37,714 bases of DNA, taken from positions 1 through 37,714 of the forward strand of contig JASBVM010000010.1 in assembly GCA_029961055.1 (NCBI GenBank). Reading direction: 5' to 3'. Source of the stretch: Bacillota bacterium. GTDB lineage: Bacteria > Bacillota > Sulfobacillia > JAIMAT01. Positions 1-4,939 of this stretch are shown here, piece after piece. Both the position numbers and the translations under genes were made by a program. The first letter of the stretch is position 1; each line of letters begins with the position of its first letter. The notes beneath the pieces are model-generated. The model searched no databases. It saw only the letters and a list, made by a program, of their open reading frames with translations, and was not told where the DNA came from.

Positions 1-364
1 CGGTGGTGGGCTCGTCGCCCAGCTGGCCGGCGGACGCCGTCGCGGCCGCGGCGGCGTCCAGCGTGCTGTCCTTCCGGAGCTTGCGGTTGATCCTCGTCTT
101 GAACTTGTGGATCTGGCGCTCCAGCTTGTCCACCACGAGATCGATGGAAGCGTACATGTCGGCGCTGGCTTCCTCGCCGCGCAGGATCATGCCGCCCAGC
201 GGGATCGTCACCTCGACGATGTGCCGCTTGCGGATGACGCTCATGCGGACCTGGGCGTCGATGGGCCGGTCGAAGTACTTGTCGAGCTTGCTCAGGCGCT
301 TTGCGGCGTACTGCCGCAGAGGCCGCGTCACCTCGACGTTCCGCCCCGTGAACGCGATCTCCAA
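1..364 (-). CDS. hpf: Ribosome hibernation promoting factor HPF/RaiA (3' end off window)
   Basis: The visible 121 residues form the N-terminal HPF/sigma-54-modulation domain, which binds in the 30S decoding channel and silences ribosomes in stationary phase. The start ITGRN-like signature is present as AFTGRNVEVT (residues 4-13), followed by a basic region ending in KTRINRKLRKDS around residue 100 and an Ala-rich linker beginning near residue 106. In Bacillota the long form carries a second, dimerising domain after such a linker; here it would lie beyond the left edge. I chose the TTG start at 364 because GGAGG sits 8 bases upstream; a GTG three codons earlier lacks room for a ribosome site. 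Position after fliS matches the fliS-(fliT)-hpf order known in Bacillus. Confidence 0.93.
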   Translation of the reverse strand, partial: MEIAFTGRNVEVTRPLRQYAAKRLSKLDKYFDRPIDAQVRMSVIRKRHIVEVTIPLGGMILRGEEASADMYASIDLVVDKLERQIHKFKTRINRKLRKDSTLDAAAAATASAGQLGDEPTT

Positions 365-686
365 AGCCTGCACCTCCAGCGTCCGCCCGTTGGCGCGACG
401 GCGGGCCGCTTCGGCGGACGTTGCCGCGGCTCGCCCGGGGCCGCACTCCCGCTTGGGCGGGTCCCCAGGACCCTATTCCCGAGCGGCGCGAGCTTCTCCT
501 CCGTCGGCCGGACGGCCCTGTGGAGATGTGGACAGCGGGATCCGCAGTCCTGTGGACAGAGTGCATATCTCTGTGAATAACGGACCAAGGAAGCCCATCC
601 GCTGTGGACTTCCTTGTGGACAGCTGTGGACACCCTTGTGGACAGGCAGCCGCGGCGAGGTACCGCGACGAAATCAGCCCACGCCT
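365..686. other. Intergenic region fliS-hpf
   Basis: This gap of about 320 bases holds no credible gene. It contains two overlapping perfect inverted repeats (CCCGC/GCGGG at 448-461 and GGGTCC/GGACCC at 459-473), neither followed by a T tract on the minus strand, so no clear fliS terminator. The fliS-proximal half carries the DnaA-box-like cluster described separately. I see no convincing sigma-A promoter for hpf, although some promoter must be here or upstream of fliS. Confidence 0.6.
519..645 (+). promoter_or_regulatory. Cluster of eight DnaA-box-like 9-mers
   Basis: Eight motifs of the form TGTGGAnnn, all in one orientation, start at 519, 527, 551, 572, 603, 615, 625 and 637. Four are identical TGTGGACAG, one is TGTGGACAC, one TGTGGACTT, one TGTGGAGAT and one TGTGAATAA. 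Read on the other strand these are CTGTCCACA and relatives, one base from the high-GC DnaA box TTGTCCACA known in Streptomyces; the site at 572 reads TTATTCACA, one base from the classical TTATCCACA. Spacings of 10, 12 and 12 place the last four on nearly the same helix face. DnaA binding is inferred; a dedicated repressor of hpf is the main alternative. Confidence 0.55.
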
Positions 687-1181
687 TTACCCGGCCGAGC
701 GCACTTCCGCCGCGGCGGCGCCCGGCCTCGCCCCGGAGGGCGCCACAGGCACCGCGACCGGCGCCGTTGCGGGCGCCGCTCCCTTCCCGTCCAGCCGCTC
801 CCAGGCCTCGCGGAGCGGCGAGATCACGTCGGCGAGGCCCTCCAGGGCGTCGGAGGCCGGCCGGAGCTCCGCCCGGACCAGGCGCTCGTAGAGGAACGAG
901 TAGATGGCCTCCAGCCGGGCGGCGATCTCGCCCCCTTGGCGGAAGTCGAGGCTCTGGCGGAGGAGCTGGAGGGCTTCCTTCGCCTTCTCGGTGTGGCGGC
1001 GCAGCTCGTCGGTCGCCTGGCGGTCGCGGGCCAGGCGGGCGGCCGTCACCTCCCGCTCCAAGACGCGCAGGGTGATGGCCACCAGCCCGGCGGGCGAGGC
1101 GGTCAGCACCTCGGCCTGCTCATAGGCACGGCGGCGGTCGGCGCCATAGCTCCCATGGGAGGCAGGGTAGCCGCCCGGCAT
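687..1181 (-). CDS. fliS: Flagellar secretion chaperone FliS
   Basis: FliS is the cytoplasmic export chaperone that caps the C-terminus of flagellin before secretion. The 164-residue product has the family start pattern YEQAEVLTASPAGLVAITL (residues 20-38), then a helical bundle with the LDFRQGGEIAARLEAIYSFL segment and LREAWERL near residue 128. The family is usually 120-135 residues; here the last 30 or so are a Pro/Ala-rich tail likely to be disordered. The ATG at 1181 is preceded by AGGAG 9 bases away. It follows flaG by 95 bases and precedes hpf, as in Bacillus, but fliD and fliT are missing from this block. Confidence 0.9.
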   Translation of the reverse strand: MPGGYPASHGSYGADRRRAYEQAEVLTASPAGLVAITLRVLEREVTAARLARDRQATDELRRHTEKAKEALQLLRQSLDFRQGGEIAARLEAIYSFLYERLVRAELRPASDALEGLADVISPLREAWERLDGKGAAPATAPVAVPVAPSGARPGAAAAEVRSAG

Positions 1182-2572: not shown

Positions 2573-4168
2573 TCAGAGGCGGTGACGGAAGCTGGCCAGG
2601 ATCGCCTGCCAGAGGGCGCCGGAACGTTTCCGCAGCGCCTCGACCTCGGCGCGCAGGTCGACCACCTCCACCCCGTCGCGCAGGCCGGTCAGGTTGATCT
2701 CCACGTTGAGGAGCGCACCCTGGCAGGCGCTCCAGAGGAGCGTCCCCGCGCTGGCCCCGTCCGAGACCGCGTTCCGGTTGCCGATGTCGGTCACCTCGCG
2801 GGCCAGCGCCATCACCTCCACCGCCTTCCGCGCCACCTCCAGCGGCACCTGGCAGGCCTGGAGGAGGGCCTGCTGAACGGCCGAGTCCCTGGCGGCCCGC
2901 TCTTCCTCCGACTCCCGGGGCAGCCGCCGCGCCGCGATCACGGCGTCGAAGGCGGTGGCGTCACGGTCCGCCAGCTGCAGGAAGCTCTCCCGGGCCATGG
3001 CCGCCTGCTGCTCGATGGCGGCCATACGGCGCTCCACCTCGGCGTACTTCTTCCGTCCCTGCGTGAGCGCCGCCACCATGCCCACCAGCGAGGCCCCCAG
3101 CGCGCCGGCGAGCGCCGCCGCGGCGCCGCCGCCCGGCGCCGGCGAGTCCGAGGCCAGGTCCGCCAGGAAGTCCTCGACGCGGCGGGCGCGGACGGCGCCG
3201 CGCCGCTCCGCCTCCTCGCGCTCGCGCGCGCGGCGGTCCGCCTCCTCGGCGTCGGCGCGGGCCACCGCCCGCTCCAGCACCTGCCGGTCGGGGTCGAAGC
3301 CCTCCAGGCGGAGGTAGTAGCTGGCGCTCGCCTCCAGCGCGCGGCCCGGCACCAGGCCGACCAGCTCGGTGGAGGCGACGTCCAGCGCGAAGCGCGCCGC
3401 CTCGACCCGGAGGAGCTCCAGCGCCCGGTAGAGGGGCGTCGCCTCGGGATCGGTCAGGTCCATGGAGACTTCGATCTCCGGCCGCTCGGGGAGGGCGAAG
3501 CCGATGGCGCGCACGTTCCGGAGGCCGCCGGAGGAGGCCCGGATGCGGCGGGCCAGCTGCCTGGCCACCCGCTCGTCGCCGCCGCGCAGGTAGGCGTTGA
3601 AGGCGACGATGGCGCCCCGCGCGCCCACCGCCGTCGCTCCGGCCTTGCCGATGGCGTGCGGTCCGAAGTCCGGCAGGCGGCGGCCCTCGGCCACGTCCTG
3701 GCGGAGCCCCTCGTACTGGCCGCGGCGGACCTCCGACAGCTCCTGCCGCTCCGGCCGGAGCGCCGCCCGGTCGTACAGGTAGACCGGCAGGCCCATCTCG
3801 CCCAGCTGGCGTCCCACCTCCCGCGCCAGCTCCACCGCCGACTCCAGCGTGACGCCGCGGACCGGGACGAAGGGGGCCACGTCCAGCGCGCCGATGCGCG
3901 GGTGGCTTCCCTGGTGCCGGTCCATGTCGATGAGGCGCACGGCCGCCTGCGCCCCGGCCAGGGCGCTCCGGCGGACGGCCTCGGGCTCGCCCACCAGCGT
4001 CAGCACCAGGCGGTTGTGGTCGGGGTCGGCGTGGCGGTCGAGGAGCTGCACTCCCGGGACGCGGCAGGCCTCCGTCAGGGCGTCGATCACTTCCTGGCGG
4101 CGCCCCTCGCTGAAGTTGGGCACGAACGCGAGCAGCGGCCGCCGGTACGGGTCGCTCACCACCGGCAT
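2573..4168 (-). CDS. ftcD: Bifunctional glutamate formiminotransferase / formiminotetrahydrofolate cyclodeaminase
   Basis: This 531-residue protein fuses two enzymes of histidine-linked folate metabolism: transfer of the formimino group from formiminoglutamate to tetrahydrofolate, then deamination to 5,10-methenyl-THF. Residues 1-305 show the transferase start AFVPNFSEGRR, DRHADPDHNR and DMDRHQGSHPRIGALD, with the GKAGATAVGARG region near 170. After a charged linker (about 305-330) the cyclodeaminase domain has SDSPAPGGGAAAALAGALG and VTDIGNRNAVSDGASAGTL. The length matches known FTCD proteins. ATG at 4168 has AAGGGGG 9 bases upstream and overlaps csrA by 13 bases. No hut genes are visible here. 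Its frame is continuous with that of fliW across csrA (see findings). Confidence 0.93.
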   Translation of the reverse strand: MPVVSDPYRRPLLAFVPNFSEGRRQEVIDALTEACRVPGVQLLDRHADPDHNRLVLTLVGEPEAVRRSALAGAQAAVRLIDMDRHQGSHPRIGALDVAPFVPVRGVTLESAVELAREVGRQLGEMGLPVYLYDRAALRPERQELSEVRRGQYEGLRQDVAEGRRLPDFGPHAIGKAGATAVGARGAIVAFNAYLRGGDERVARQLARRIRASSGGLRNVRAIGFALPERPEIEVSMDLTDPEATPLYRALELLRVEAARFALDVASTELVGLVPGRALEASASYYLRLEGFDPDRQVLERAVARADAEEADRRAREREEAERRGAVRARRVEDFLADLASDSPAPGGGAAAALAGALGASLVGMVAALTQGRKKYAEVERRMAAIEQQAAMARESFLQLADRDATAFDAVIAARRLPRESEEERAARDSAVQQALLQACQVPLEVARKAVEVMALAREVTDIGNRNAVSDGASAGTLLWSACQGALLNVEINLTGLRDGVEVVDLRAEVEALRKRSGALWQAILASFRHRL

Positions 4169-4434
4169 CCGTCCAGCCCCCTTCCCAGCGCTTCGCTCCC
4201 GGGCAGGCCGCGGTTCAACAGGTCGCGGACCGCCTCGGAGGAAGTGCGCTTCGCTTCCTGGTTGGCCTCCGCCACCTGGCGGGCGATCTCCTCCCGCCAG
4301 ACGGCCACCTCGCGCGGCGCCTCCACGCCCAGCGCCACGGCGGAGCCGCTCTCCGCCACCACGACGCGGACCTGGCGCCCCTGGCCGAGGTCGATGAGGA
4401 TCGCCTCGCCCTGCTTCCTGCGGATGATCAGCAT
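4156..4434 (-). CDS. csrA: Carbon storage regulator CsrA
   Basis: CsrA binds GGA motifs in leaders and blocks translation; in Bacillus it represses flagellin (hag) mRNA and is neutralised by FliW. The start MLIIRRKQGEAILI and the strand VRVVVAESGSAVALGVEAP, then the RNA-contacting REVAVWREEI, are all present in residues 1-50. At 92 residues it is longer than the usual 60-75; the extra 30 residues after the helix form a divergent tail encoded partly over the ftcD start. ATG at 4434 has no strong ribosome site (only GGACAGG 6 bases upstream), which suggests translational coupling to fliW. No hag gene follows, unlike Bacillus. Confidence 0.92.
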   Translation of the reverse strand: MLIIRRKQGEAILIDLGQGRQVRVVVAESGSAVALGVEAPREVAVWREEIARQVAEANQEAKRTSSEAVRDLLNRGLPGSEALGRGLDGCRW

Positions 4435-4939
4435 GACGGCCTGTCCGCCGCAGCGGTGCGGCCCGGCCCGGTGGCCGGCGGCGGAGCGGCCAGCGGTCGT
4501 CCTCCAGGATGACCTGGCGGCCGAGGCGCCCGACCGGGTCGACGACCAGCGGCGCGCGCAGGTTGACGGTGGTCTCCAGCGGCCGCTCGGGAGGGACGAC
4601 CGCCACGCAGAGGACGAAGAGGCCGCCCCGCCCGGCCTCCCCGCGGCGCGCGTCGCCCGCCTCCCCCAGCGCCCCCGCCAGCCCGGCCCAGGCCTGCCGG
4701 TACTCCGCCCAGAAGGCGAGCGGATCGACCACCACCAGGGCGACGTCGCCATGGTCGACGCTCTGCAGCCAGCGGAGCGGGGCGGCCTCGGGGGCCGCGC
4801 CGTCTCGCGGGGACCGGGCGGCGACGTCGAGGAGCACCCAGCGCCGGTCGAGGGGCATGCCCACCAGGCCGTCGGGGAATCGGATCAAGCGTGCTTCCTC
4901 GATCTCCAGGGTGCCGAAACGGCTGGTCTCGACACGCAT
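4428..4939 (-). CDS. fliW: Flagellar assembly factor FliW (3' end abnormal)
   Basis: FliW binds flagellin and, when free, binds CsrA and relieves its repression. Residues 1-146 are typical: RFPDGLVGM (20-28), the central LVVVDPLAFW (68-77) and the C-terminal NLRAPLVVDPVGRLGRQVIL (126-145) before DDRWPLR. The ATG at 4939 has a GGGGGG ribosome site 10 bases upstream. Oddly, the reading frame has no stop near here: it stays open through csrA and joins the ftcD frame. The end I give, TGA at 4430-4428, lies in another frame and overlaps the csrA start as ATGCTGA; reaching it needs a one-base shift after about codon 143, so 512 bases are not a multiple of three. Either an indel (real or sequencing) or a genuine open fusion is present. 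Confidence 0.8.

Follow-up and report, generated by a model that had tools for sequence, protein, structure and literature searches.

The stretch of DNA analysed here (the window; 37,714 nucleotides, GC about 0.73) raises the question of why a row of DnaA-box-like repeats should stand in front of a gene for ribosome hibernation. The genome it belongs to comprises 54 contigs and 2.28 Mb (2,276,387 bp), the window being contig C10. Its first gene, hpf (1..364, minus strand; PF02482, 1.6e-29), encodes the ribosome hibernation promoting factor (S30AE); the probable start is the TTG at 364, which is preceded by GGAGGT, and the 3' end lies beyond the contig end at base 1. Upstream of the repeats is fliS (687..1181, minus strand; PF02561, 4.5e-23), whose stop codon is about 42 bp from the cluster, which thus occupies the fliS-hpf intergenic region at 519-645. 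A linkage of the repeats to fliS was considered and rejected, as the gene on this side differs among relatives. Farther along the window, a single 788-residue ORF (2573-4939, minus strand; N-terminal limit as given in the ORF list) combines FliW (residues 19-153) with a formiminotransferase-cyclodeaminase (FTCD_N, FTCD and FTCD_C), and is either an odd fusion or two genes in one frame.

The preliminary description had reported eight same-strand TGTG(G/A)A motifs within 519-645, four of them identical, and both counts were confirmed. The motifs start at 519, 527, 551, 572, 603, 615, 625 and 637 (start-to-start spacing 8, 24, 21, 31, 12, 10 and 12) with TGTG always on the plus strand, and the exact TGTGGACAG is present at 527, 551, 615 and 637. 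Taken as TTATCCACA-like boxes they are read on the minus strand, toward hpf. Five boxes, starting at 615, 603, 572, 560 and 551, correspond in order and spacing (12, 31, 12 and 9 bp) to an array found in relatives, and we refer to them as B1 to B5. The start of B1 (CTGTCCACA, 615..623, minus strand) is 12 bp from that of B2 (AAGTCCACA, 603..611, minus strand), as in 38 loci, and B2 is followed after 31 bp (31 or 32 bp in 58 loci) by B3 (TTATTCACA, 572..580, minus strand), the only perfect TTATNCACA of the genome. B4 (ATATGCACT, 560..568, minus strand), which was not among the eight motifs originally listed, is degenerate, with two mismatches to TTRTNCACA. B5 (CTGTCCACA, 551..559, minus strand), with one mismatch, is the last box of the conserved core.

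Four further boxes on the minus strand lie outside the conserved five. Two precede B1 (GTGTCCACA, 625..633, and CTGTCCACA, 637..645). On the hpf side there is another CTGTCCACA at 527..535, where both congeners also carry a box (TTGTCCACA and TTTTCCACA), and a weak box at 519..527 (ATCTCCACA) that together with its neighbour at 527 makes up TGTGGAGATGTGGA. The 127 bp therefore hold six boxes with at most one mismatch to TTRTNCACA and three weaker ones. By the definition cited in PMC7561715, which asks for three or more DnaA boxes spaced on average less than 100 bp apart, the region 519-645 is a DnaA-box cluster. The earlier remark that no AT-rich element is obvious has to be corrected, since AT content rises locally in the middle of the cluster (to 53% in 40-bp windows across 540-600, versus about 27% overall). 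The gap between B3 and B2 contains an inverted repeat, AAGGAAG...CTTCCTT (583-614), that is apparently not kept in the congeners. An RNA element was considered and rejected: no Rfam family matched positions 1-2500 of the window at the gathering threshold, and at loci with the cold-shock gene csp the element stands ahead of the promoter.

Reading the repeats as DnaA boxes had been made dependent on the motif being rare in the genome, on the dnaA-linked origin using the same box and on relatives retaining the cluster. All three expectations were borne out. TGTGGAYA occurs 17 times in the genome (both strands, 2,276,387 bp), and 5 of these 17 occurrences are in the cluster; the Poisson chance of five is about 6e-18 at a given 127-bp place and about 4e-13 as a scan. 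Triple TGTGGA clusters were found only at the hpf site and at C8:7100-7149, and close TGTGGA pairs also at dnaA-dnaN (C11:20753 and 20807) and as one isolated pair on C7. Among three congeners, close pairs recur only at hpf and dnaA-dnaN, the few others in both congeners being unrelated single pairs. The C8 cluster (4101-4153 of locus L006) adjoins tRNA-like genes, a weak RepB-primase match and a DUF927 gene, and may represent the replication region of a mobile element integrated there; no cluster of this type was seen in the two congeners scanned.

When the window genome and 60 relatives were searched, hpf was found in 58 of the 61, and same-orientation TTATCCACA boxes lie upstream of it in many genomes from several families of the class. 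These boxes share a compound core in which TTATCAACA is followed after 3 bp by two abutting copies of TTATCCACA. When up to two mismatches were allowed, the core pattern was present in 93 of the 154 genomes of the class, in almost every case as a single copy, and in 176 of the 398 genomes of a phylum-wide sample, often in two copies. The reversed pattern gave zero matches among the same 154 and the same 398 genomes. In full, the array consensus reads TCCACA, TTATCCCCA, AAAnCC, TTATCAACA, TTATCCACA, TTATCCACA, and in relatives the box starts are 12, about 31, 12 and 9 bp apart in a conserved order. An alignment of 31 family-level representatives, mostly one locus per family, gave 1.48 bits per column in the core versus 0.02-0.04 in the far flanks; the other locus counts reported here are uncorrected for relatedness. 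Closer to the window, B3 is identical (G001 and G002 included) and B5 nearly identical in three congeners, the counterpart of B5 being GTATCCACA in both congeners, and the B4 position is an exact TTATCCACA in most other families.

The copies fall into distinct genomic settings. Genes outside the window were named by tblastn with csp, hpf, secA and fliS queries, and otherwise by reading translations. At 73 of 84 fetched class loci csp and/or hpf is nearby, within the 1-3 kb fetched. The hpf-type copy, seen for instance in L268-L280, L283-L288, L291, L297 and L304, is followed by csp-hpf-secA or by hpf-secA. A second type, exemplified by L260, L263, L264, L266, L290, L292, L295, L302, L305 and L306, lies at the 3' end of tsaD; in many phylum members the three-box core is found there, which is the location of the gcp/ydiF DnaA cluster of B. 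subtilis. A few copies are situated between comFC and an amino-acid-binding protein gene, and some fetched copies are in other contexts. The tsaD copies also supplied a score for the hpf site. With a matrix trained on 12 tsaD-side copies only, all from outside the window's class, the segment 551-580 (minus strand) was the top site of the 37.7 kb at 23.5 bits, the runner-up reaching 2.3. The same matrix scored 34 of 57 class hpf upstream regions above the maximum of 1,710 shuffles, and a clear core was not seen with it in about 22 of the 57. A chance origin of the cluster was rejected on the rarity and density of the boxes, the reversed-pattern controls and the shuffle scores.

The proposed link between the cluster and hpf stood in part. 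The cluster does precede hpf and is kept there in relatives, but hpf is not its only partner. A small cold-shock gene, csp, with a promoter of its own, separates array and hpf in many relatives, and some lineages have an MFS, oligopeptide-binding or amino-acid-binding protein gene after the array. An MFS-type transporter gene between array and csp was seen in G118, G127, G128, G131 and G134 (L231, L237, L238, L256 and L257; L081-type). The distance from the array to the first gene is similar whether that gene is csp or hpf, and in family f6 and in G060 csp and the array are inverted together. The intervening csp, the joint inversion and the MFS or binding-protein genes downstream weaken a reading of the array as an hpf promoter element only, and because other genes follow it in some lineages, csp and hpf cannot be its sole target. 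The window's genus has no intervening csp, so here the array faces hpf directly.

Promoter motifs accompany the array. The order in many relatives is array, Spo0A box, sigma-A promoter, csp, sigma-H-type promoter and hpf. A sigma-A promoter (TTGACT, 17-18 bp, then TATAGT or TATATT) precedes csp in 41 of 89 loci; it is strongly conserved across many class loci and lies 46-240 bp past the array. About half of the examined class genomes have a sigma-H-type motif before hpf, mostly 60-100 bp from its start, as counted with a loose pattern and without a shuffle control. In the window a tentative candidate for such an hpf promoter lies at 475..502 on the minus strand (GGAGGAGAA, 11 bp, CGGGAAT). This is a weak match; in the congener G002 the motif is closer to the sigma-H type (GAAGGATAT, 12 bp, CGGGAAT), and the region is conserved in the genus. 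In the class, the density of Spo0A boxes (TGTCGAA) is raised on either side of the array (2.0-2.4 versus 0.27 per kb); in other classes it is raised downstream of the array (7.4 versus 0.14 per kb). No clear enrichment was seen at the tsaD copies, and no canonical Spo0A box is present at the window's own cluster. Spo0A itself is encoded by the window genome and was found in 58 of the 61 genomes searched.

We then considered how the cluster relates to dnaA and to the origin. The DnaA of this genome, GGRDHTTV motif included, matches the solved DnaA of B. subtilis almost from end to end. Its dnaA-dnaN region carries the same kind of box, with one perfect TTGTCCACA, and shares the 14-mer TGTGGAGATGTGGA with the hpf cluster. 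From the box sequence, the GGRDHTTV motif and the counterpart at gcp, we infer that the hpf copy binds DnaA. The preliminary description had also suggested that the cluster might be part of an origin, a reading that would suit the many boxes in a single orientation and the locally AT-rich centre. In the window genome the cluster and dnaA are on different contigs. In the complete relative G033 the hpf element is at 2.79 Mb, 683 kb from dnaA. The GC skew of G033, sampled at 20 places of 18 kb, stays positive between dnaA and about 1.7 Mb, flips near 1.73 Mb and is negative beyond, with no switch at the element. Because the flip is at dnaA rather than at the element, the cluster is not an origin in this relative, and the dnaA-dnaN region of the window genome is a conventional one that carries boxes; an origin role is accordingly very improbable. 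A further difference from oriC is that most class members have a weak compound core, or none, at dnaA. In family f27 (L115, L122 and L123) a weak three-box core (about 23-26 bits) was seen at dnaA and no hpf copy was found.

Rarity, the boxes shared with dnaA-dnaN, conservation and the G033 skew thus support the earlier assignment of a DnaA-box-type cluster outside oriC. What such a cluster does can be explained in several ways. It could be a pure DnaA reservoir, keeping DnaA from oriC and delaying initiation, with the neighbouring genes incidental. The same core at the 3' end of tsaD, where a promoter is not expected, is consistent with this, as is the survival of the array when the neighbour on either side is replaced. 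The hpf copy is also about 140-225 kb from dnaA in G023, G024 and G043, and B. subtilis with six extra-oriC clusters deleted initiates early (Okumura 2012, as reviewed in PMC13220808). A reservoir, however, needs no conserved distance to the csp or hpf start, no orientation toward the gene and no adjoining promoter or Spo0A boxes, and the G033 copy is far from dnaA; we regard this explanation as rather unlikely. The ordered boxes, their fixed spacing and the usually single hpf-type copy per genome might alternatively indicate a functional counterpart of datA or DARS, a site acting on which nucleotide DnaA carries. This we consider improbable, as B. subtilis has neither datA nor DARS loci according to that review. 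Recognition by a protein other than DnaA might account for the departures from the strict DnaA consensus, B3 often being TTATCAACA and B2 often TTATCCCCA. Against this, B4 and B5 match TTATCCACA exactly in most families, the matrix that finds the site derives from copies at tsaD, the counterpart of a locus bound by DnaA in B. subtilis, and the same kind of box occurs at dnaA-dnaN, making another protein a very remote prospect.

We therefore favour, as rather likely on the genomic evidence, an extra-oriC DnaA-box cluster that holds DnaA and probably regulates csp and/or hpf, often beside Spo0A boxes. The similar distance from array to first gene, whether csp or hpf, and the joint inversion with csp favour a regulatory role; the MFS and binding-protein neighbours and the tsaD 3' copy favour a DnaA-holding role too. 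Since there is evidence for both we propose a dual site, and regulation appears somewhat more likely than pure titration. The five same-orientation boxes, with the four extra ones of this species, would bind several DnaA molecules, perhaps cooperatively, upstream of the promoters of transition-phase genes, csp being served by sigma-A in many relatives and hpf by a sigma-H-type promoter. Bound DnaA, often with Spo0A at neighbouring boxes, would adjust csp and hpf transcription upward or downward, ribosome-hibernation and cold-shock output would track the DnaA available, and the array would also withdraw DnaA from oriC. In the window's own cluster, the degenerate B4, the weak sigma-H-type site and the missing canonical Spo0A box count against this reading. 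Because the same row precedes hpf or the adjoining csp across much of the phylum, it probably ties the control of chromosome copying to the shutdown of protein synthesis. A stronger version, in which an ancestral array of five boxes would, across much of the phylum, let DnaA and Spo0A directly control hpf and csp and so wire replication state to translational dormancy, is a tentative proposal that we hold with less than even confidence.

The conserved order and spacing and the similar distance to csp or hpf in families of several classes suggest an old DnaA control point that B. subtilis lacks or has lost. To our knowledge, Bacillota DnaA loci outside oriC are known mainly from B. subtilis. 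The csp/hpf array provides a second conserved locus, beside tsaD/gcp, for titration models, and its natural 12-31-12-9 bp spacing could be used in assembly studies of DnaA. It also makes testable whether replication-initiation capacity is a factor in the onset of ribosome hibernation. We found no literature joining 'DnaA box' with 'hibernation promoting factor' or Symbiobacterium in a search that most subscription papers lay outside. Within that scope, the extra-oriC DnaA-box cluster is a known kind of element, and a conserved csp/hpf cluster with a spaced five-box array was not found.

Among known systems, datA and DARS of E. coli require IHF as well as other cofactors. They resemble the array in being non-coding DnaA-box clusters that act on DnaA away from oriC (PMC13220808). 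B. subtilis hpf (yvyD) needs sigma-H and sigma-B, and its published promoter factors are sigma-H, sigma-B and CodY (PMC12421865). The sigma-H-type motif before hpf in many class members is a likeness to that promoter; a difference is that the paper makes no mention of DnaA. The extra-oriC clusters of B. subtilis are at gcp/ydiF, ywlC, ywcI/vpr, trmE/jag, sda/yqeG and yydA, tsaD/gcp being a strong DnaA site (PMC4447404). A location at csp/hpf is absent from the top-20 list and the main text of that source, and the hpf-type copy is set apart from the clusters as described there by its five-box spacing and by the Spo0A boxes next to it. The array is like these clusters in having several boxes within about 100 bp, outside oriC and, as most of them are, in a promoter region, and the second copy in many relatives shares the location of the gcp (tsaD) cluster. 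The sda promoter of B. subtilis concerns a different gene, but it too has a DnaA-box array at the promoter of a sporulation-transition gene.
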